Source: Cyanobacteriota bacterium (GTDB lineage Bacteria > Cyanobacteriota > Vampirovibrionia > LMEP-6097). From it: a stretch of DNA of 56,035 nt. Position numbers and translations under genes: made by a program. The stretch spans positions 1-56,035 of the forward strand of contig JAQCFG010000004.1 of NCBI GenBank assembly GCA_027618255.1, in the 5' to 3' direction. Shown in pieces: positions 6,759 through 55,508 of the stretch; position 1 is the stretch's first letter; every line of letters starts with the position of its first letter. Below the pieces are notes generated by a model that saw only the letters and a program-made list of their open reading frames with translations, did no database searches and was not told the DNA's origin.

Positions 6759-6796
6759 TAGACCTCTTTCGAAACCGAAGGTTTCGTGTAATGATG
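6759..6796 (+). repeat. Short dispersed hairpin repeat, copy 1
   Basis: 38 bases matching 16990-17027 (opposite strand) with three mismatches. The core is a perfect 7-bp hairpin, CGAAACC-GAA-GGTTTCG (6770-6786), preceded by GACCTCTTT and followed by TGTAATGATG. The other copy has a different loop (read as TAA on its coding strand). The 3' end resembles the 3' box of the longer repeats (GCGTAACGATG). It abuts the longer repeat at 6799-6917 in the uvrA-sulP gap. Confidence 0.7.
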
Positions 6797-6798
6797 TA

Positions 6799-6917
6799 GG
6801 ATTGGTTACAAAATTGTTCAGAACAAGGCTTGCGAAAGCCCGAAGGGCGTTCCCGAAGTTTGCTGTCGCAAATGAGGGTGAGGGTAACGCAGTTCTGGGC
6901 GATTTGGTGACCAATCC
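6799..6917 (+). repeat. Long dispersed hairpin repeat, copy A
   Basis: Outer arms 6799-6824 and 6892-6917 are complementary over 26 bases; the five mismatches are all transitions, which G-U pairs would tolerate. Inside are the 5' box ACAAGGCTTGCGAA (6823-6836), hairpin GCCC-GAA-GGGC, a second hairpin GTTTGC-TGTC-GCAAAT, and the 3' box GGGTAACGCAG (6882-6892). From 5' box to 3' box it spans 70 bases, the same as copy B. The element starts directly after the sulP stop codon, so it could also serve as a 3' end structure. Confidence 0.7.
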
Positions 6918-8459
6918 CTATTTGGTTCGGTCTTTTTCGGCAGTACTCGCATACTTAGAAAAACGATCTGTAAGCGTATGAAGCTCAAGTACTACCTTCC
7001 CACCACTAGCCATATATTGAGTTTCCCAATTAACCAAAAAATCAATACAAGAATGGTCAATGTACTGGCACTTGTCAAAGAATATATAAACTTTTTTCTT
7101 CTGCTCAAGAGCCCCTAGTAGATCAGCAATTTGCGGCAATGTCACAAAATTGGCAGCACCTTCAAGATCAACTTCTATTACATCGGTTCCTTCAATTGCT
7201 TGAGTTGAGATTTCAAGATGATTAATTTGGTGTAAGAGTCTAATAAATGAAACAAGTAAGCCAATGATGATTCCTTGAAGTAAGTTAGTTAGGAGTACTG
7301 CAGTAACTGTTATTAGATAGATTATAAATTCAGCCCGGCTATAACTGTAGATCTTAATCAGAGCTTTGTAGTTAACTAGCCTAACACCGGTATAGACGAG
7401 GATTGCTGCAAAGCAAGAAGTTGGGATTATCTCCAAAACATGAGGGAAAATAATGATAAATACTAACAAGAATATTCCATGAAGAATTGTTGAGATTCTT
7501 GTTTTAGCACCAGCTGTAACATTGGCAGCACTACGAATTATAACTCCAGCAATTGGTAAAACTCCCAGAAATCCTGCCACCAAATTACCAGTAGCTTGAG
7601 CAAAGACCTCTTGATTGTAATTAGCACGAGCGCCTGTATGTAATTGATCGACAGCTGTTGCAGTAAGCAAAGTCTCGGCAGTTGCAATGAAAGCCACAGT
7701 AAAAGCAGCGAGCATATAACTTGAATTAGTTAGAGCTGGTATAACTGCATTGAAGTCAATTATATTTATATCCTGCATGAGTCCATCGGGTAGATTTAAG
7801 TGTTTGATAGGGAAATGAAAAATTTGAGTGACAAGAATTGAAACAACTACACCAACCAAGGCTGGCGGAATAGCTTTGATACGCTTGGGAACAAGATTCC
7901 AGAGCATTATTGTTCCAATTGTGATGACACCAATCAATGCAGACATATGGTAAACAGAGCCATCCATTGGAAATAAGCCATGTAATAAAGAACCGGGAAT
8001 TAATGCTAAATTTGCAATTGGATTATGATTTGGGCTATCTCCAACCATGACATGGAACTGAGAAGCAAAGATAGAGACACCAATCGCGCTGAGCATACCT
8101 TGAATAACTGATGGTGCTACGGTTCTGAATACTGGTCCAAGTTTCAAGATCGCAAAAATCAATTGAATAATTCCAGCAAGAAAAGCAATTAATCCAAGTT
8201 GCTTAAGACCGAAGTTGGTAATTATCTCTGCCACGATAATCATTAAACTAGCAGTTGGACCACTAACTGATAAAGGACAGCCAGAGAGTAAACCAACTAC
8301 AATACCACCAACTGCTGCTGAAATAATCCCAGATGTTGGTGAAGCTCCAGTTGCAACTGCAACACCAATTGATAAAGGTAATGCAACTAAAAAAACCACA
8401 AGAGCCGCTAAGCCTTCATGCTTGAGACTTGTTTTGTTACGACTAAAATATTTCATCAT
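6918..8459 (-). CDS. SulP-family inorganic anion transporter with STAS domain
   Basis: About 513 residues. A membrane domain of roughly 10-14 hydrophobic helices (residues about 15-415) holds the SulP-typical ALPLSIGVAVATGASPTSG segment after helix 1 and the LPIAGVIIRSAANVTAGAKT region. A C-terminal STAS domain follows (about 425-513). Family members carry sulfate, bicarbonate or other anions by Na+ or H+ coupling; the substrate cannot be told here. I chose the ATG at 8459 because AGGA stands 9 bases upstream; that site and the more upstream ATG (8477) both lie in the right-hand inverted repeat 8466-8494. The repeat thus provides the translation signal. Confidence 0.9.
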   Translation of the reverse strand: MMKYFSRNKTSLKHEGLAALVVFLVALPLSIGVAVATGASPTSGIISAAVGGIVVGLLSGCPLSVSGPTASLMIIVAEIITNFGLKQLGLIAFLAGIIQLIFAILKLGPVFRTVAPSVIQGMLSAIGVSIFASQFHVMVGDSPNHNPIANLALIPGSLLHGLFPMDGSVYHMSALIGVITIGTIMLWNLVPKRIKAIPPALVGVVVSILVTQIFHFPIKHLNLPDGLMQDINIIDFNAVIPALTNSSYMLAAFTVAFIATAETLLTATAVDQLHTGARANYNQEVFAQATGNLVAGFLGVLPIAGVIIRSAANVTAGAKTRISTILHGIFLLVFIIIFPHVLEIIPTSCFAAILVYTGVRLVNYKALIKIYSYSRAEFIIYLITVTAVLLTNLLQGIIIGLLVSFIRLLHQINHLEISTQAIEGTDVIEVDLEGAANFVTLPQIADLLGALEQKKKVYIFFDKCQYIDHSCIDFLVNWETQYMASGGKVVLELHTLTDRFSKYASTAEKDRTK

Positions 8460-8465
8460 AGGGTG

Positions 8466-8578
8466 GTATCCTGACATCGGACATAATCTTGTATTATTGT
8501 CTCATCGTCCTCTAATCTTTATACCCGATTAGTACTGAGATTAATTGTGATACAAGATTATGTCCAATGTCAGGATAC
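8466..8578. repeat. 113-bp inverted-repeat element between sulP and hypothetical gene
   Basis: Bases 8466-8494 and 8550-8578 are reverse complements over 29 positions with one mismatch, with a 55-base non-coding middle. The left arm supplies the Shine-Dalgarno and possible start of sulP; the right arm supplies the TGA stop of the gene at 8570-9547. No target-site duplication is obvious. MITE insertion or a large transcription terminator/attenuator hairpin are both possible. Confidence 0.65.
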
Positions 8579-9547
8579 GACCCTTGGTCCACCAACAGGA
8601 TAATTACGCTCACCATTGGTATTAGACCAAGTCATAAACATACGACCGATACCACTACCCACAAAATAAAGTGCCATAGTCACTGGTTCGTTGTTTTTTT
8701 GTTTGGAGGCCATTTCACAAAGTGAACCCATAATAAATGAGAGTCCTGAATTTATATAATTAGTACGTTTGCAAGCCCAGTGATCTTTACCTAATTGGAA
8801 AGAATCAACAAGGATTTCACCAATACCTTTGATCCAACCACCTGCTTTGGTGCTACCAGTCAAGAGCCAAGTAAGCACACCGGCACCAGAAAAAATACCA
8901 CCCCAAGTTCCAGAAAGTAATCCAAAGTTGTCGGAGAGATTTTTATAAGTATCAAGTGTTAATATTTTTTTCAAAGCAAGAGACATTCTGCTGCTGACCA
9001 TCTTAAAATTGTCTCCATAGCTCTTGGACTCCGATGTCTGTGCCATACTGGTAACGAAGTTGGGGATTTGATAAAGCGTAAACGCCAGTCCACGCAAGAG
9101 CCCCATGATTTTACGAGGAGCAAACATAGCAATCACAAGTTCAGAAAGATAGCCTGCAACATTGAATACTTCTTTTTGTTTATGTCCATTATAAATATTG
9201 AAAATCGAATTAATACCCATGGATAACTTGGCACCAATATCAGCAGTCATGTTAACCAACTTATTGTTTTTAGAAGCTCTAGAAGAATTGACCAAGGCAG
9301 AAAGACTATTGGTAATAATATTAATCACATTAGCAAAGTCTGTGCTTTTCTTTAAAATATTATATAAATGAATATCGTCTTGTTTTTCAGACTTAACTTG
9401 AATCTTGGAAATAGGTTGCATGGCATGTAGCTCAGTAGGATCATTAAAATCTGAAAGCTCAAATTCACCAGCAGGTCTTGCTCTTTTGGAACTGGCTTGA
9501 CCATAGTCCAAAATTGGTGAAAAATCGAGTGCCTCTGCGACCTGCAT
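8570..9547 (-). CDS. Hypothetical protein, 325 residues
   Basis: Not recognised. From the preferred ATG (9547) the protein begins MQVAEALDFSPILDYG. Residues 1-60 look disordered and polar; about 70-325 is helical with several moderately hydrophobic Gly/Ser-rich segments (for example FGLLSGTWGGIFSGAGVLTWLL), consistent with a membrane-associated or pore-like protein. A longer frame begins at 9607, but that upstream part overlaps the mtnB promoter. The ATG at 9547 has a TATTAT 8 bases upstream, like other leaderless starts here. The stop codon is contributed by the inverted repeat at 8550-8578, so the C-terminus may have been altered by that insertion. Confidence 0.6.
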   Translation of the reverse strand: MQVAEALDFSPILDYGQASSKRARPAGEFELSDFNDPTELHAMQPISKIQVKSEKQDDIHLYNILKKSTDFANVINIITNSLSALVNSSRASKNNKLVNMTADIGAKLSMGINSIFNIYNGHKQKEVFNVAGYLSELVIAMFAPRKIMGLLRGLAFTLYQIPNFVTSMAQTSESKSYGDNFKMVSSRMSLALKKILTLDTYKNLSDNFGLLSGTWGGIFSGAGVLTWLLTGSTKAGGWIKGIGEILVDSFQLGKDHWACKRTNYINSGLSFIMGSLCEMASKQKNNEPVTMALYFVGSGIGRMFMTWSNTNGERNYPVGGPRVVS

Positions 9548-11644: not shown

Positions 11645-14407
11645 ATGTTTAAAAAATTAACAGTTTTAGTAGTTTTGATGAGTTTTATGGGCAATTATTT
11701 GCCAGTGTTAGCAGTCCCTGATGAAGGCGCAACGGTAGGGACAATATTCCTTATCGATGAAGATGGCACAAAGCACTCTATCGGTTCTGTGATAGTAGAA
11801 AATGGCGTTGGTCACGCTCTGGTTCCAGCAGGAACTCCATTAGATGCCCACATTGAAATTTCAACAGTGGACGATGATGGCGAAGCACACATGAAGCCTG
11901 TGCCAAGTGATTATGATCCGGACAAGGATATACTTGATGAGCCAAATATGGCTAATACAGCTGCATCATTGTTATGTGACTATATTCTTGCCAATATGGG
12001 GCAACTTGGTGCCGATAATGAGCAAAAAGATGTCATTTATAACGAGCTTAATGAACATATTACAAAAGTTTTAGAAGAGAATCCAGTAAGTTCTATGGCT
12101 GATGCCTTAGATATTATTGCAGCCAATTTGACATTCAACTCTGGTGTTATTGGTGAAGCAATTGAAAAAGCTGGTTTTGTAGTAGATCCTGAAAAGGCAC
12201 TAATTGCAGCAGTGGCAGCAAAAGATGGCTTAGCTTTAAACGAAGCAGGCAAACTTGATATCGCCGGTTCTATTGAGGCTACTGATAAAAATTTAGCAGA
12301 CTTTGCTGCAGGACCTGAATTTGCAGGTCTTCACTTACCTCCTTTCATGCAAGGTGATAAAGGAATGGAATTCTATCATGCGATGGCTGGTATGGATAAA
12401 GGACATCCTGATCAATATGACTTATCCAATATTGGTCTATATGACGTGTCTTTGACTTCACCAATAAGTCCTCGCGATGGTGTTAAATTCCATGATGGAA
12501 TGGTATTTTTTGATGGAATGGAAGTAGGCGATCCGTCACAACTTCCTGAATTTCCAGGAGCGTTTGGACCAGCATTCATTATGAATTTAGATGAAACAGA
12601 AGTTAATTTCTTGAATGAAAAGATGGGCAATATGCCTCCAGAGCAACTAGAATTATTCGCAATTCCAGAAAATTCTCCGTACATACCAGAAGGACTTGGA
12701 ATGCCAATATTGGATGCTGAGGGATTTGAAGCAATGCAACAAATAGTGGGCGCAACTCCATTTTTCTCTACAGATGGAATAACAAGCTTGGTTCCAAGTA
12801 GTTTTCAGCCGGGAACTGATTTTGAACCGCATGGCATTATTTACCCGAGACCAATGTCTGCAGAAATGGAAGCTATGTTTACAGCACATGCAAATGAATA
12901 TTTTGATGGTCCTCAAGGTAGCAAAGGTCCTCAAGGTGAAGAGTTCACTCATTACGAACTTCCACCAATGCCAGCAGGAGGCTTAGACTTCTCCGGTATG
13001 CGAGGTATGGATTATGTACCATTTGAGGATCTAGGTTACTCAAGACCAAAAGGTATACCAATGTTTGATCCACATGGCATGACTTATGCTGACATGGAGT
13101 CATTTAAAGCAATGGCAGATCTGTTTGATCCAGCTGCAACATTCTTTGCTGATGGATTTGATCCAAATGCAGAAGATCCGTTTGTACCACCGAATATTGC
13201 ACAAGGAATGTTAGGCGAAGAGTTTGCTCACATGAGTCCTGAAGAAGCAAAAGCGCATTGGGACTCAACGGGAGGAAGCTTTGATGGGTTTACTCATGAA
13301 GCACCACCAGTAGATGGTAACTTTGATCCTAGTAGCTTTGATGGAACTCAGCCACCTCCAGATGGTGAATTCCATGATGATTTCGGAGACCAACCGCTGC
13401 AACCAGGTGAGGAGTTTATCGATGACGGTACTCAAGTGCCTGCAGAAGGTGAATTCAAGGACGATGGCGGCACTGCACCATTAGCAGAAGGTGAATTCAA
13501 GGACGATGGTGGCACTGCACCAGCTCAAGATCCGGCAGCAGGTGGAACAGCTCCAGCACAAGATCCGGCACCAGCACCGGCTCCTGCGCCAGCACAAGAT
13601 CCGGCACCAGCACCGGCTCCTGCGCCAGCACAAGATCCGGCACCAGCACCGGCTCCAGCGCCAGCACAAGATCCTGCACCAGCACCGGCTCCTGCGCCAG
13701 CACAAGATCCGGCACCAGCACCGGCTCCAGCGCCAGCACAAGATCCTGCACCAGCACCGGCTCCTGCGCCAGCTGAAGATCCAGATAAATCTCAAAGAGT
13801 TAAAGCTAACAGTAATAAAACAGTATTACTCTCAGCTGCAACTAGTTTAAATGCTGATGCTGGTGTGAAAACCGTACTTACTATTAGCACGAGCAAAAAA
13901 GCAAGTAAAGTAACAGCAAGTAAAGGTGTCTACTCAATTGGAAAAGCGAGAACTGCCAAAACTAAAACAATAGTTCCGATTATTGTTGATCCAGCAGTTG
14001 CAACTGATTCAGTTGATATCAACGTAGCTTTTACTGATGGAAATGCTGATATAGAAACTGTTAGTGTTGATAAAGAAGATTCAACAGAATTGGTAACGCA
14101 ACTTGATGGTAACAAAATTGAGATTACGACTGCCAATGCTGGACTTGAAGACTTTGACTTCACTTCAGTTACTGGATATCTTCTTGCACCAGGAACAAGT
14201 ACCTTAAAAATCCAAAAAGCGATTAAAGTGAAAGGTAAACTTGTTGAAGGTGAATCAGGACAGATTGTTCAATTCGATATATCGAAGAAGCTAAGTAGCT
14301 TAGAAGATGGTGTTTACACTATTGTCTTTGAAGATGGTGGCAAGACTTACTATGGTCGTGTAACAATCGGTAGCTTGTCAGCTAGAACAATCAAAGTTAA
14401 TTTGTAA
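11645..14407 (+). CDS. Large secreted protein with Pro-Ala repeat and C-terminal beta domain
   Basis: 920 residues, unrecognised. A signal peptide covers about residues 1-23 (MFKKL, hydrophobic core, VLAVP). Residues 25-110 are acidic. About 110-220 is Ala-rich and helical. About 220-600 is Asp/Gly/Pro-rich with recurring FDP, FxDG and MGM patterns. Then come GEF(K/H/I)DD repeats and six perfect 12-residue units QDPAPAPAPAPA (about 639-710). A Thr/Val/Lys-rich C-terminal domain (about 715-920) looks like a beta-sandwich. The Pro-Ala stretch resembles wall- or periplasm-spanning linkers. No LPXTG motif or other sorting signal is obvious. Shine-Dalgarno GGGAG is upstream and a strong terminator downstream, so it is probably a single-gene unit. 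Confidence 0.85.
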   Translation: MFKKLTVLVVLMSFMGNYLPVLAVPDEGATVGTIFLIDEDGTKHSIGSVIVENGVGHALVPAGTPLDAHIEISTVDDDGEAHMKPVPSDYDPDKDILDEPNMANTAASLLCDYILANMGQLGADNEQKDVIYNELNEHITKVLEENPVSSMADALDIIAANLTFNSGVIGEAIEKAGFVVDPEKALIAAVAAKDGLALNEAGKLDIAGSIEATDKNLADFAAGPEFAGLHLPPFMQGDKGMEFYHAMAGMDKGHPDQYDLSNIGLYDVSLTSPISPRDGVKFHDGMVFFDGMEVGDPSQLPEFPGAFGPAFIMNLDETEVNFLNEKMGNMPPEQLELFAIPENSPYIPEGLGMPILDAEGFEAMQQIVGATPFFSTDGITSLVPSSFQPGTDFEPHGIIYPRPMSAEMEAMFTAHANEYFDGPQGSKGPQGEEFTHYELPPMPAGGLDFSGMRGMDYVPFEDLGYSRPKGIPMFDPHGMTYADMESFKAMADLFDPAATFFADGFDPNAEDPFVPPNIAQGMLGEEFAHMSPEEAKAHWDSTGGSFDGFTHEAPPVDGNFDPSSFDGTQPPPDGEFHDDFGDQPLQPGEEFIDDGTQVPAEGEFKDDGGTAPLAEGEFKDDGGTAPAQDPAAGGTAPAQDPAPAPAPAPAQDPAPAPAPAPAQDPAPAPAPAPAQDPAPAPAPAPAQDPAPAPAPAPAQDPAPAPAPAPAEDPDKSQRVKANSNKTVLLSAATSLNADAGVKTVLTISTSKKASKVTASKGVYSIGKARTAKTKTIVPIIVDPAVATDSVDINVAFTDGNADIETVSVDKEDSTELVTQLDGNKIEITTANAGLEDFDFTSVTGYLLAPGTSTLKIQKAIKVKGKLVEGESGQIVQFDISKKLSSLEDGVYTIVFEDGGKTYYGRVTIGSLSARTIKVNL
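13559..13774 (+). repeat. Six tandem 36-bp units (QDPAPAPAPAPA)
   Basis: Six in-frame 36-base units without gaps. Units 1 and 2 are identical. Units 3-4 and 5-6 form two essentially identical 72-base doublets distinguished by CCAGCG/CCTGCG and CCGGCA/CCTGCA variants, so the array grew by duplication of a two-unit block. GC content is far above the surroundings. Confidence 0.95.
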
Positions 14408-16936: not shown

Positions 16937-17656
16937 TTAGCGTTCTTCTATCGGTGAATCTCCGTTAGATTTAGCGTTTTTGGTTGCGGCCTCATCACAC
17001 GAAACCTTAGGTTTCGAAAGAGGTCTAGTAAAAAACTTCGGCAAAAAACTCGCCAAAATCAATAATGCCACTGCCACAGATAATTTACCAATGAGATACT
17101 GAGAACCTTCTGAAGCTTCTTGCCCGACATAACCAAGATAGACATAAACAAAAGTCAACGGAGTCATAAATATAAAACTAGTAACAGCAAATGTCATTGC
17201 TGACATATTGGTTAAACCAAAAGCAAAATTGAGAATGGTAAATGGAAAGACAGGTAGCAAGCGAGCAAAAGCTAGAAAGCGCCAACCCTGCTCTTCTACC
17301 TTCGTCTTAATACTAGTGAGCATCGTTATATTTTGCTTCTCAACCCAATCACGGGCAACATAGCGAGCTACCAGAAAAGCCAAAGTCGAACCAATTGTAG
17401 CTCCTATCATAGTATAGACAGTGCCCCAGAGAGGTCCAAAAAGAAAACCAGACAAGATCGTCAAAATAGTGCCAGGGAAAAACACAACCGGTGCAATAGA
17501 ATAAATTAGAATATAAACAAATGGTGCCCACAACCCAAGACCCAGAAGCAAAGCATCCAAGTTTTCTCTAGCAAGAGACTCTCTATTGACAAAACCCAAA
17601 ATTGCAAAAACAAGGATAAACGAAACGAGAACTATTTTTTTCAAATCAAATTTCAT
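16937..17656 (-). CDS. TVP38/TMEM64 (DedA-like) membrane protein with repeat-derived tail
   Basis: 239 residues with about six hydrophobic helices. The VTT-domain core GTILTILSGFLFGPLWG and the following GATIGSTLAFLVARY are clear. Proteins of this family are scramblase- or transport-like inner-membrane proteins. After the last helix (ending LPKFF) the protein gains about 30 hydrophilic residues; the first part, RPLSKPKVSCDE, is encoded by the dispersed hairpin repeat at 16990-17027 read in frame. Family members normally end near the last helix, so the tail is probably an insertion product. Confidence 0.9.
   Translation of the reverse strand: MKFDLKKIVLVSFILVFAILGFVNRESLARENLDALLLGLGLWAPFVYILIYSIAPVVFFPGTILTILSGFLFGPLWGTVYTMIGATIGSTLAFLVARYVARDWVEKQNITMLTSIKTKVEEQGWRFLAFARLLPVFPFTILNFAFGLTNMSAMTFAVTSFIFMTPLTFVYVYLGYVGQEASEGSQYLIGKLSVAVALLILASFLPKFFTRPLSKPKVSCDEAATKNAKSNGDSPIEER
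16990..17027 (-). repeat. Short dispersed hairpin repeat, copy 2 (in the TVP38 reading frame)
   Basis: 38 bases matching 6759-6796 with three mismatches, on the coding strand of the TVP38 gene. The hairpin CGAAACC-GGTTTCG (17000-17016) is retained with a different 3-base loop. It is translated as part of the C-terminal tail. Confidence 0.75.
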
Positions 17657-32323: not shown

Positions 32324-32462
32324 AAAGTCAACGAAATGGGTACTTTTGTTGACTTTATAAACTATTCTAATTTAAAACCTAATAATATCAATGGTTTTTA
32401 GCTCATAAGATTTATTGACTTTTGCAGCACAAAGTCAACAAAAGTACCCATTTCGTTGACTT
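32324..32462. promoter_or_regulatory. Two long palindromic sites upstream of the Fic gene
   Basis: Site 1 (32324-32356) is a 33-base palindrome with 9-bp perfect ends AAAGTCAAC / GTTGACTTT. Site 2 (32431-32462) is its exact reverse complement over 32 bases, so the pair also forms a long inverted repeat. Extra half-sites GTTGACTT and TTGACTTT occur at about 32307 and 32414. This looks like a multi-copy operator in the 320-base gap before the Fic gene, whose protein has a C-terminal winged-helix segment; autoregulation is inferred. Confidence 0.65.
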
Positions 32463-40606: not shown

Positions 40607-40737
40607 CAATTTAGAGATGCGGTATTTGTTTGATTTAACAAGGCTTGCGAAGCCCCGCAGGGGCGTGTTCTCATGTGTTTACACACATGAGAACTCGCGT
40701 AACGATGTTAAATCACAAAAGACCCAGCTCTAAATTA
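40607..40737 (+). repeat. Long dispersed hairpin repeat, copy B
   Basis: 5' box ACAAGGCTTGCGAA (40638-40651), hairpin GCCCC-GCA-GGGGC, a perfect 12-bp hairpin GTTCTCATGTGT / ACACATGAGAAC, and 3' box CGCGTAACGATG (40696-40707). Box to box it spans 70 bases, exactly as in copy A. Outer arms are complementary in two blocks (GATTTAACA / TGTTAAATC and AATTTAGAG / CTCTAAATT), and the right arm includes the fusA stop codon. The hairpin stems differ from copy A at most positions yet stay paired. Confidence 0.75.
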
Positions 40738-42849
40738 TGCGGTGGCTTTTTGTTTGCCAGTCTTAATCTCTTCAGCCACATTAGCAGGAACTTCTTCGTA
40801 AGCCAAGAACTCCATAGTAAATGTACCTTGACCTTTAGTTTTGTTACGAATATCAGTAGCATAACCAAACATATTTGCAAGAGGCACTACAGTAGCAACT
40901 TGTGAAAGTCCTTTGTCTGTTTCCATCTTATCAATACGTCCACGTCTTGCAGAGATATCACCGATAACATCACCCATAAATTCTTCAGGTACTTCAATAT
41001 CTACTTTCATTACAGGCTCAAGAATTGCAGGACTTGCTTTTGCAACACCCTCTTTAAGCGCCATAGATCCAGCGATACCAAATGCCATCTCGTTCGAGTC
41101 AACATCATGGTAAGAACCATGCTTAAGCGTTGCTTGTACACCAAGTACTTCGTAACCAGCCAATACCCCACCTGCCATAGCTTCTTTGATACCTTTCTCA
41201 ACAGCTGGAATATATTCTTTTGGAATAATACCACCAACAATCTTGTTGATAAATACAAGTGGAGGATGCTCTTCGCCATCTTCTTTCTTACCAATTGGAG
41301 CTGGTTCAAAATCAATAACAACGTGACCATATTGACCACGACCACCAGACTGCTTAGCATATTTCATATCAACAGTAGCAGGTTTGCGGATACTCTCTCT
41401 ATAAGCTACTTGCGGCTTACCAACAGTAGCGTCTACTTGGAATTCACGCTTGAGTCTATCTACAAGAATTTCCAAGTGAAGCTCACCCATACCAGAAATA
41501 ATTGTTTGACCAGTTTCGTGATCTACTTTCACTCTGAAGGTAGGATCCTCTTCAGCCAACTTGTGAAGCGCTGAAGATAGTTTCTCTTGGTCTACTTTAG
41601 TAGCTGGCTCAATAGCAACTGAAATAACCGGCTCAGGGATGTGAAGTGACTCAAGAATAACTTGATTCTTCTCATCACAGATAGTATCTCCAGTAGTTGT
41701 ATCTTTAAAACCAACAACCGCACAAATATCACCAGCACGAATATCTTCAATCTCTTGTCTATCATCAGACTGAAGCTTGATCAAACGTGACACACGTTCT
41801 TTGCCGCGTCTGCTTGCGTTATAAACGTAAGAACCAGAATTGATTACACCAGAATACATTCTAATAAAAGTAAGACGTCCAACAAACGGGTCAGTCATTA
41901 CTTTAAATGCAAGAGCAGCCATTGGTTTATTGTCATCACATTCACGAGTAACTTCATTATCGTTCAGATCCAAACCTTTAATAGCTTCTACTTCAAGAGG
42001 ATTAGGTAAATAATCAATAACAGCGTCAAGTAATTTTTGAACACCTTTATTTTTAAAAGCTGAACCACAAAGAACAGGAATCACTTGCAATTTAGCAACT
42101 GCATTATGAAGTCCTGTTTTAAGTTCTTCAACAGTAAACGCCTCTTCACCTTCTTCCAGATATTTATTCATCATCGCATCATCGTTTTCTGCAATTGACT
42201 CAATTAATTCTGTTCTCAATACTGCACACTCATCAGCAATATCAGCAGGGAAACCATCTGTTATTTCAATATCAGATCCAACATCATCTTTATGGACATA
42301 TGTTTTTTTCTCAAGCAAATCTGCAATACCTTTGAATTGATCTTCAGAACCAATAGGATACTGTAGTGGTCTGGCATTCACACGAACCTCTTTCTGTAGT
42401 TGTTTAACAACTCTAAAGAAATCAGCACCTTGTCTATCCATTTTGTTTACAAAAACGAGACGTGGAACTTTATATCTATCAGCTTGTCTCCAAACTGTTT
42501 TAGTTTGGGGTTGAACACCACCAACTGAACACAAACAAATAATCACACCATCAAGCACACGCATAGAACGTTCAACTTCAATCGTAAAGTCAACGTGACC
42601 CGGAGTATCAATTAGATTAATAAATTTGCCTTTCCATTCTGTTGAAATTGCCGCTGCAGTAATCGTAATACCACGCTCTTTCTCTTGTTCCATCCAGTCA
42701 GTAACTGATGTACCTTCATGAACTTCACCAATTTTGTGAATCTTGCCCGAGAAGAATAAAACTCTCTCAGTTGTAGTAGTTTTACCAGCATCAATGTGCG
42801 CAGCAATCCCAATATTTCTATAATCTTCGTACTTAATTTTACGTGCCAT
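40735..42849 (-). CDS. fusA: Translation elongation factor G
   Basis: 704 residues, full length. GTPase that drives ribosomal translocation. G1 [15 protein letters not shown], switch [11 protein letters not shown]3 [10 protein letters not shown]4 NKMDRQGAD, then domains II-V with GEL(H)LEI and the C-terminal [20 protein letters not shown]. Shine-Dalgarno AAAGGA precedes the ATG. rpsG and tuf, the usual neighbours, are absent, so the str operon is split here. Confidence 0.98.
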
Positions 42850-54149: not shown

Positions 54150-55508
54150 TTGAGCAATAAACAAGACAAGAGCAATCATTATCAAGAAGCAATTGAGTTA
54201 ATTAAGGCTCTAGCCAATATCAACTCGCATTCTTATAACTTAGACGGCATCGCCCAGGTCTCCAATAGAATCCAAGCTGAGTATCAAAAACGATTTAAAA
54301 ATATAAAAATCGAGGAGATCGAGCTTCCTAATCAAATCAGTGTCGATAACAAAGGTCAAGAACTCAAAATCCCACTTGGCAAAGCTCTCAGTATCAAACG
54401 AATTAATGCCAATGCCGGCGCAAAACCAATTTTGCTGATGGGGCATATGGACACGGTCTATCCTGTTGATTCCAAGTTCCAGACTTGTACTGAAATCCAG
54501 AGCCTATCCGAAAAGCTTCCAGATGCAAGGCTTGCGAAGAGTGGGGAGGCTGAGTTGACTGAGCCGGAATTGTTTAGGGGTAACTACATACGCAAAAGTG
54601 AACAAGTTGGAACTGATGCCCCCGGAGACGAGCACGAGCGTAACGCAGCAGGTGGGACTTTGCGGACAGGCTCTATTTTAAACGGGCCTGGGGTGGCTGA
54701 CTTAAAAGGCGGTTTGGTAGTAATGATGCAAGCACTTGAGTTGTTTGAAGCAAGCGCAGATGCTGGCAAAATAGCTTGGCAAGTATTCTTGAACTCAGAC
54801 GAAGAGATTGGTTCACCAGGTTCGCAAACTCTATTTCCCGAGCTGGCAAAAAACAATGAGCTTGGTTTGATTTATGAACCAGGACTTGAAGACGGATCTA
54901 TAGCCTATCGCCGCAAAGGCGCGGGCAACTTCACTCTCATTGCTCATGGTAAAGCAGCTCATGTCGGCAGAGCCTTCAACGAGGGAGCAAGTGCTATTCT
55001 TGCAATTTCTGATTTTATTCAAGCAGCCAATAAGCTCAACTCTGAATCCATCATCATCAACTTTGGCAAAATAGAGGGTGGAGGACCTCTAAACGTAGTC
55101 CCTGAGCTGGCGAGCCTTGGCATCAATATTAGAATCGAAAACAACGAAGACATGATCATAGTTGAGAATCAGTTAAATAAAATCATCGACAAAATCAACC
55201 AAACAGAAAATATCAAACTAGAACTGCACGGTAAATTCAACCGCAAACCCAAAATCCCCAACGCCAAGCTCGAAGCGCTTTATGATTTAATAGCCAGTTG
55301 TGCCAAAGAACTTAATATCTCCATTTCTAAAAAAGACACTGGCGGCTGCTGTGACGGTAATAATCTCTTTGAACATGGATTAGTCAATATCGACACTCTT
55401 GGAGTGCGAGGCGGCAAGATCCACTCAGCAGAGGAGTTTGTTTGTTTAGATTCTATTGAGGAGAGAGTTAGTTTGAGTCTTGCAATACTCAAAAAACTGT
55501 CATCCTGA
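54150..55508 (+). CDS. M20-family metallopeptidase with repeat-encoded insertion
   Basis: 452 residues, glutamate carboxypeptidase/ArgE-like. Zinc and catalytic residues: His99 and Asp101 in LLMGHMDTVYP, Asp184 in GPGVADLKGG, Glu218/Glu219 in NSDEEIGSPGS, a later Glu in YEPG, and C-terminal GGKIHSAEEF. Between HMDTVYP and GPGVADLKGG relatives have about 20-25 residues; here residues about 117-175 are extra and match the long hairpin repeat (177 bases, in frame). Start TTG, with TACAAT 7 bases upstream. Convergent with an AstD gene, which hints at amino-acid catabolism. Confidence 0.9.
   Translation: MSNKQDKSNHYQEAIELIKALANINSHSYNLDGIAQVSNRIQAEYQKRFKNIKIEEIELPNQISVDNKGQELKIPLGKALSIKRINANAGAKPILLMGHMDTVYPVDSKFQTCTEIQSLSEKLPDARLAKSGEAELTEPELFRGNYIRKSEQVGTDAPGDEHERNAAGGTLRTGSILNGPGVADLKGGLVVMMQALELFEASADAGKIAWQVFLNSDEEIGSPGSQTLFPELAKNNELGLIYEPGLEDGSIAYRRKGAGNFTLIAHGKAAHVGRAFNEGASAILAISDFIQAANKLNSESIIINFGKIEGGGPLNVVPELASLGINIRIENNEDMIIVENQLNKIIDKINQTENIKLELHGKFNRKPKIPNAKLEALYDLIASCAKELNISISKKDTGGCCDGNNLFEHGLVNIDTLGVRGGKIHSAEEFVCLDSIEERVSLSLAILKKLSS
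54499..54675 (+). repeat. Long dispersed hairpin repeat, copy C, inside the M20 peptidase gene
   Basis: 5' box GCAAGGCTTGCGAAG (54525-54539) and 3' box GAGCGTAACGCAG (54637-54649) match copies A and B. The flanking arms 54499-54520 and 54655-54675 are reverse complements (AGAGCCT-TCCG-AAAG shared, about three mismatches and a gap), and differ from the arms of A and B. Total 177 bases, divisible by three, with no stop in the coding frame. The inner part is longer than in A and B. Confidence 0.75.

Follow-up and report, generated by a model that had tools for sequence, protein, structure and literature searches.

In the gene of an M20-family hydrolase (54150 to 55508, + strand), a hairpin repeat lies between two conserved motifs and leaves the reading frame intact. 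How did such a segment come to reside in a conserved enzyme, and does it belong to the protein, to a repeat family, or to both? The gene is located in the stretch of DNA analyzed here (the window, 56,035 nt), which is contig C4 of a 1.99-Mb genome assembled in 104 contigs. The nearest named relative of this genome, which belongs to a lineage related to the cyanobacteria, is the MAG “Candidatus Melainabacteria bacterium SI037S4_bin4,” a name that points to Saanich Inlet and suggests a marine site.

The insert in the M20 hydrolase gene

The host ORF encodes 452 amino acids of the NCBIfam PRK07338 type, and the insert occupies residues from about 117 to 175. A covariance model of the repeat placed the element at 54498 to 54674 (+ strand; E = 4.4e-14), a length of 177 nt that is divisible by three and free of stop codons in the host frame; the ORF is indeed open across it, as expected from the original prediction of an in-frame hairpin repeat within an M20 peptidase. 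On the + strand, the element starts with a left arm, CAGAGCCTATCCGAAAAGCTTCCAGATG (54498 to 54525), followed by a 5′ box, CAAGGCTTGCGAAG (54526 to 54539), that is repeated genome-wide, an inner region (54540 to 54635) longer than in the common 129-nt form, the second conserved box at the 3′ side, GAGCGTAACGCAG (54636 to 54648), and a right arm, CAGGTGGGACTTTGCGGACAGGCTCT (54649 to 54674), the partner of the left one. The two arms are paired over about 26 nt, with G·U pairs and mismatches. The stability of this copy exceeds that of shuffled sequences modestly (z = -2.5 for the element and z = 0 with wider flanks), so that the structural case rests on the element family, not on the window copy.

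The sites in the orthologous genes of five relatives (the sister genome, G002, G004, G005, and G006) are empty, the segment being absent from all of them rather than present without the boxes. In the sister genome, a member of the same genus, the M20 gene is 91% identical over most of its length and lacks the 56 residues of the insert, with QTCKEINDN-ILNGPG aligned to QTCTEIQ-[insert]-ILNGPG in the window. The expectation that M20 relatives would have far fewer residues at this point was borne out by carboxypeptidase G2 (CPG2) as well, which has about 14 residues where the window protein has about 69. Since its arms, including the left one, resemble those of young copies at other loci, the window copy looks like a recent insertion. 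About 56 residues would thereby be added to the M20 hydrolase, between its HxD zinc and GPGVAD motifs; the insert is probably translated and accommodated as an additional loop, which the comparison with homologues would place on the protein surface.

Distribution, borders, and fold of the element family

In the window alone, box matches are not significantly enriched (9 with up to 3 mismatches, versus 4.8 expected), and the argument is therefore carried by genome-wide counts. The whole-genome search with the box and a covariance model, proposed at the outset, was productive: CAAGGCTTGCGAAG has 58 matches with up to 2 mismatches (versus 3 when the pattern is reversed), and the two boxes together, matched exactly, occur 21 times versus 0. 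The covariance model, trained on 19 copies, detected 51 copies in the genome of the window and 85 in the sister genome; each of the 9 genomes of the GTDB family has representatives (51, 85, 69, 42, 28, 17, 9, 6, and 6 copies), and 111 further genomes from the class have none. In this class-wide search, the element family is thus seen in only one GTDB family of “Ca. Melainabacteria.” A phylum scan of 292 genomes, among which no further member of the family was listed, found the exact two-box pattern in the genome of the window alone, and viral contigs contained no match to it. No Rfam family, ribozymes and introns included, matched the element, and no description of this element family was found within the open-access literature.

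Most copies are 120 to 131 nt long, with extremes of 87 and 180 nt, and their inner parts fall into a common form of about 129 nt, a 120- to 123-nt form, and a 176- to 180-nt form, which includes the window copy and several copies in G001. The form in genus g2, CAAGGCTGAG...AAACGCAG, is related but distinct and likewise reads through long ORFs. Copies at unrelated loci are at most 90% identical, their similarity ends at the arm ends, and arm pairing across 138 copies drops sharply to background at 26 to 27 nt. As similarity and pairing both stop there, the unit has definite borders: the element is a defined unit, usually of about 129 nt, with 26- to 27-nt pairing arms, two boxes, and covarying inner stems.

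The predicted pairs were tested on a sequence alignment made without the covariance model. Double (compensatory) changes were found in 27 of 41 pairs, and five measures, among them pairing, covariation, and pair-type counts, exceeded those of 500 of 500 shuffles, as well as slid controls. Arms pair best with their own partners (mean of -37.5 kcal/mol, versus -24.1 kcal/mol with the arm of another copy; p = 3e-29), and their mismatches include 197 G·U versus 23 A·C. Because a G·T on one strand is an A·C on the other, the G·U excess means that it is the sense strand of the element that has been kept foldable. This strand is probably the one constrained to fold, either as RNA or as single-stranded DNA, and the constraint that preserves the fold would probably serve mobility.

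Copies within genes and at stop codons

The genic copies were surveyed among 86 copies from the genome of the window and its sister genome, with “genic” meaning that an ORF reads through the element, a definition that favors in-frame cases. By this definition, 29 copies are inside ORFs (26 sense and 3 antisense), and 24 of these have a length divisible by three, compared with 18 of the 57 others (p = 9e-6). Only two loci, L107:5756 and L151:7153, stood out as candidate interrupted genes. The hosts include DapF, MtnA, Acs, GatB, MutS, DapA, TrmFO, HisC, purine nucleoside phosphorylase, RibE, CysS, TsaB, MurT, a phosphoglucomutase-like enzyme, TrpB, and UppS, where the copy is at the C terminus. 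In many of these conserved enzymes, the NCBIfam profiles are split at the insert or span it. Copies that run through genes are mostly in sense orientation, open, and frame preserving in length, and this dependence on frame is the main argument that the genic copies are retained in mRNA and translated. From the sequences, we infer that the genic inserts are translated rather than spliced out or bypassed. Box 1 is translated differently in different hosts, as DARLA in some and MQGLR in others; being read in two frames, it identifies the nucleic acid fold, not a peptide, as the conserved entity. Not all sites are clean insertions, since the insert has taken the place of some host residues in TrpB and purine nucleoside phosphorylase.

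In the sister genome, the copy in MutS (L129:3713-6490) is just ahead of the Walker A motif, GPNMAGKS, and it could affect mismatch repair.

For the copies outside genes, we examined 101 intergenic copies from six genomes and recorded whether an element end lay no more than a few bases from the stop codon of an opposite-strand ORF of 90 or more residues. The right end is at the stop codon of the opposite-strand gene in 54 of the 101, the left end at a stop codon in 5, and the random-position control gave 0.6%. Both intergenic copies of the window, in which the boxes had been noticed from the start, follow this rule. The first, at 6797 to 6918 (+ strand), is a match to the covariance model (E = 4e-10), and its right end is the stop codon of the ORF at 6918 to 8477 (- strand), a SulP-like transporter according to its G001 orthologue. 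The second, at 40607 to 40737 (+ strand), has the same boxes in a divergent subfamily missed by the covariance model and forms a strong hairpin (z = -6.7); its right end is the stop codon of the ORF at 40735 to 42849 (- strand), which, from its sequence, we take to be EF-G-like. Among the abutting genes, those for thiolase, DapB, LepA, PilC, and trigger factor match their family profiles up to the end or the last residue, and the LepA of the sister genome, where the element is missing, ends at the same residue; this indicates that these genes are not truncated. The intergenic copies may have been inserted at stop codons or selectively retained there. It is conceivable, if on balance not probable, that this pattern marks a stop-codon-directed mobile element with a mechanism so far undescribed in bacteria: an RNA or single-stranded DNA with a strand-specific fold would insert exactly at stop codons, always oriented with its right end on the stop of the opposite-strand gene, and only secondarily in frame within genes.

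The window contains several other repeats. A 35-nt inverted repeat, AGGGTGGTATCCTGACATCGGACATAAT, at 8460 to 8584 resembles hairpins found beside RAYT-like Y1 genes (GGGTCGTATCCTGACATTGGACA), and hairpins of this type probably represent a REP family of their own. A 36-nt sequence, TAGACCTCTTTCGAAACCGAAGGTTTCGTGTAATGA, is present in opposite orientations at 6759 to 6794, adjoining the copy that starts at 6797, and at 16992 to 17027. There are also a perfect 32-nt inverted repeat, with 74 nt between the arms, at 32325 to 32462 and a repeat array with 18-nt spacing at 13512 to 13835.

Origin of the element and its place among known repeats

Orthologous sites of sister genomes differ in several ways. 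In the pair L111:2326-2454 and L125:18881-19009, the arms are kept and the interior is inverted relative to the flanks; in L113/L130, the arms are kept and the inner stem is exchanged; in L098/L147, the interior is kept and the arms differ; and internal deletions are seen at two sites (L106/L141 and L133/L121). The Acs gene provides a clean empty site, where query residues 313 and 358 adjoin in the relatives and exactly 44 residues are absent; the native DLYWCTAD motif serves as the right arm and recurs, inverted, as the left arm. The TrpB insert is common to G001 and G002, with a short remnant-like segment in G000, and here the right arm overlaps the native DYILACVGGG and the left arm is complementary to the native right flank. 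Target-derived arms are claimed for Acs and TrpB only; the more general idea, based on two G004 copies, that the outer arms always derive from the target was rejected, as the comparison of 138 copies shows the arms of those two to be related via an indel. Arm homogenization and spacer inversion are a published signature of polymerase template switching (PMC8604942, PMC8794818), and template switching together with exchange between copies would explain the arm drift, arm re-pairing, spacer inversion, and interior exchange. Compensatory changes are expected from selection on the fold and also from template switching, which can supply them; the comparison of G·U and A·C mismatches separates the two in part, and the G·U bias indicates an additional strand-specific constraint.

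The M20 segment is, with high probability, a copy of a mobile palindromic element, self-folding and non-autonomous, that has become dispersed within a single marine family of Melainabacteria. The element has many dispersed copies, and, as far as the compared orthologues go, the M20 insertion is confined to the lineage of the window. A folded element of this kind would most likely be moved by an enzyme encoded elsewhere. No target-site duplication is evident in the empty sites compared, and no cognate transposase was found among the candidates examined (RT, Y1, and IS630). Reverse transcriptase was discarded as a mobilizer, being absent from G000 to G005.

REP sequences are palindromic and often found 3′ of genes, and mobilization of a REP-like element by a RAYT/Y1 (HUH) transposase acting on a folded single strand would have the merit of accounting for both the strand-specific fold and the fixed orientation. 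Y1_Tnp proteins, mostly of RAYT size (275 to 318 amino acids), are encoded in G000, G001, G002, G004, and G005; the three genomes in which the element has no more than 6 to 9 weak matches yielded none. This origin is nevertheless doubtful: the element is much larger than REPs, a GTAG-type foot was not identified in it, and it is not positioned beside Y1 genes. Those examined are flanked by different hairpins, such as GGGTCGTATCC; only one has an adjacent element match, which is weak and decayed looking (E = 0.6), few have a copy within about 1 kb, and G006 carries the element yet encodes only IS200-sized Y1 proteins. Equally unlikely is an origin as a classical MITE dependent on a DDE transposase, for instance an IS630-like one with TA ends. 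The size, the inverted arms, and the frequent TAG...CTA ends of the element would suit a MITE, but the arm sequences vary between subfamilies, target duplication is not seen, and IS630 DDE_3 genes, which are rare and absent from G001 and G002, show no correspondence with copy number.

The strong covariation, the G·U bias, and the location of intergenic copies at stop codons could also reflect a functional structured RNA (a terminator, a regulator, or a 3′-end stabilizer) instead of a selfish mobile element. We consider this quite improbable, given that the constrained strand is antisense to the abutted gene, that orthologous sites have been gained, lost, inverted, or swapped among sister species, and that the copies in essential enzymes have no evident RNA role. 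Least probable is a mini-intron (a self-splicing or excised RNA) or a ribosome bypass as in mitochondria, either of which would leave the mature protein without the insert: the fold is highly structured, strand specific, and placed between conserved host residues, but frame and stop codons would then be irrelevant, whereas the genic copies lack stops and most have a length divisible by three, many copies are antisense to genes or outside them, and Rfam ribozymes and introns do not match.

Viewed as a mobile palindromic element, the repeat has its closest counterpart in the Rickettsia palindromic elements (RPEs), a likeness that the original prediction drew correctly. RPEs and their Wolbachia equivalents are 100- to 150-bp stem-loop repeats found between genes and in frame within conserved genes, with the host frame intact (PMC3767692, PMC10969869, PMC2229807). 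The Melainabacteria element is similarly a stem-loop of 120 to 180 nt present in many copies, intergenic and in frame in conserved enzymes, with the same sense bias among genic copies. It differs in being found in an unrelated phylum, with boxes CAAGGCTTGCGA and GTAACGCAG, covarying 26- to 27-nt arms, a box 1 used in two frames, one fold-constrained strand, and, in intergenic copies, a right end that meets the stop codon of the gene on the other strand. By description, it would seem to work like an RPE in another phylum, and we do not file it as one. The enterobacterial ERIC and RU MITEs, repeats of about 103 to 168 bp, are mostly intergenic, with some intragenic copies that have open frames (PMC2759123, PMC2229807), whereas about one-third of the examined copies of the Melainabacteria element are in frame within genes, largely of core enzymes, and conserved terminal repeats or duplications are not seen. 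Hairpins embedded in coding genes are also described for Nematomorpha mitochondria (PMC6649704); the Melainabacteria element differs in having a shared two-box core dispersed over many loci, intergenic ones included.

The strand-specific fold and the stop-codon sites are the unusual parts, features of which no description was found for RPEs. With filled, empty, inverted, and swapped sites in sister genomes and an exact relation to stop codons, the question of mobility becomes directly testable in this family. Rickettsia and Wolbachia provide the best-known in-frame “coding palindromes,” and an abundant, structurally conserved counterpart in uncultured Melainabacteria suggests that this kind of protein change has originated repeatedly.
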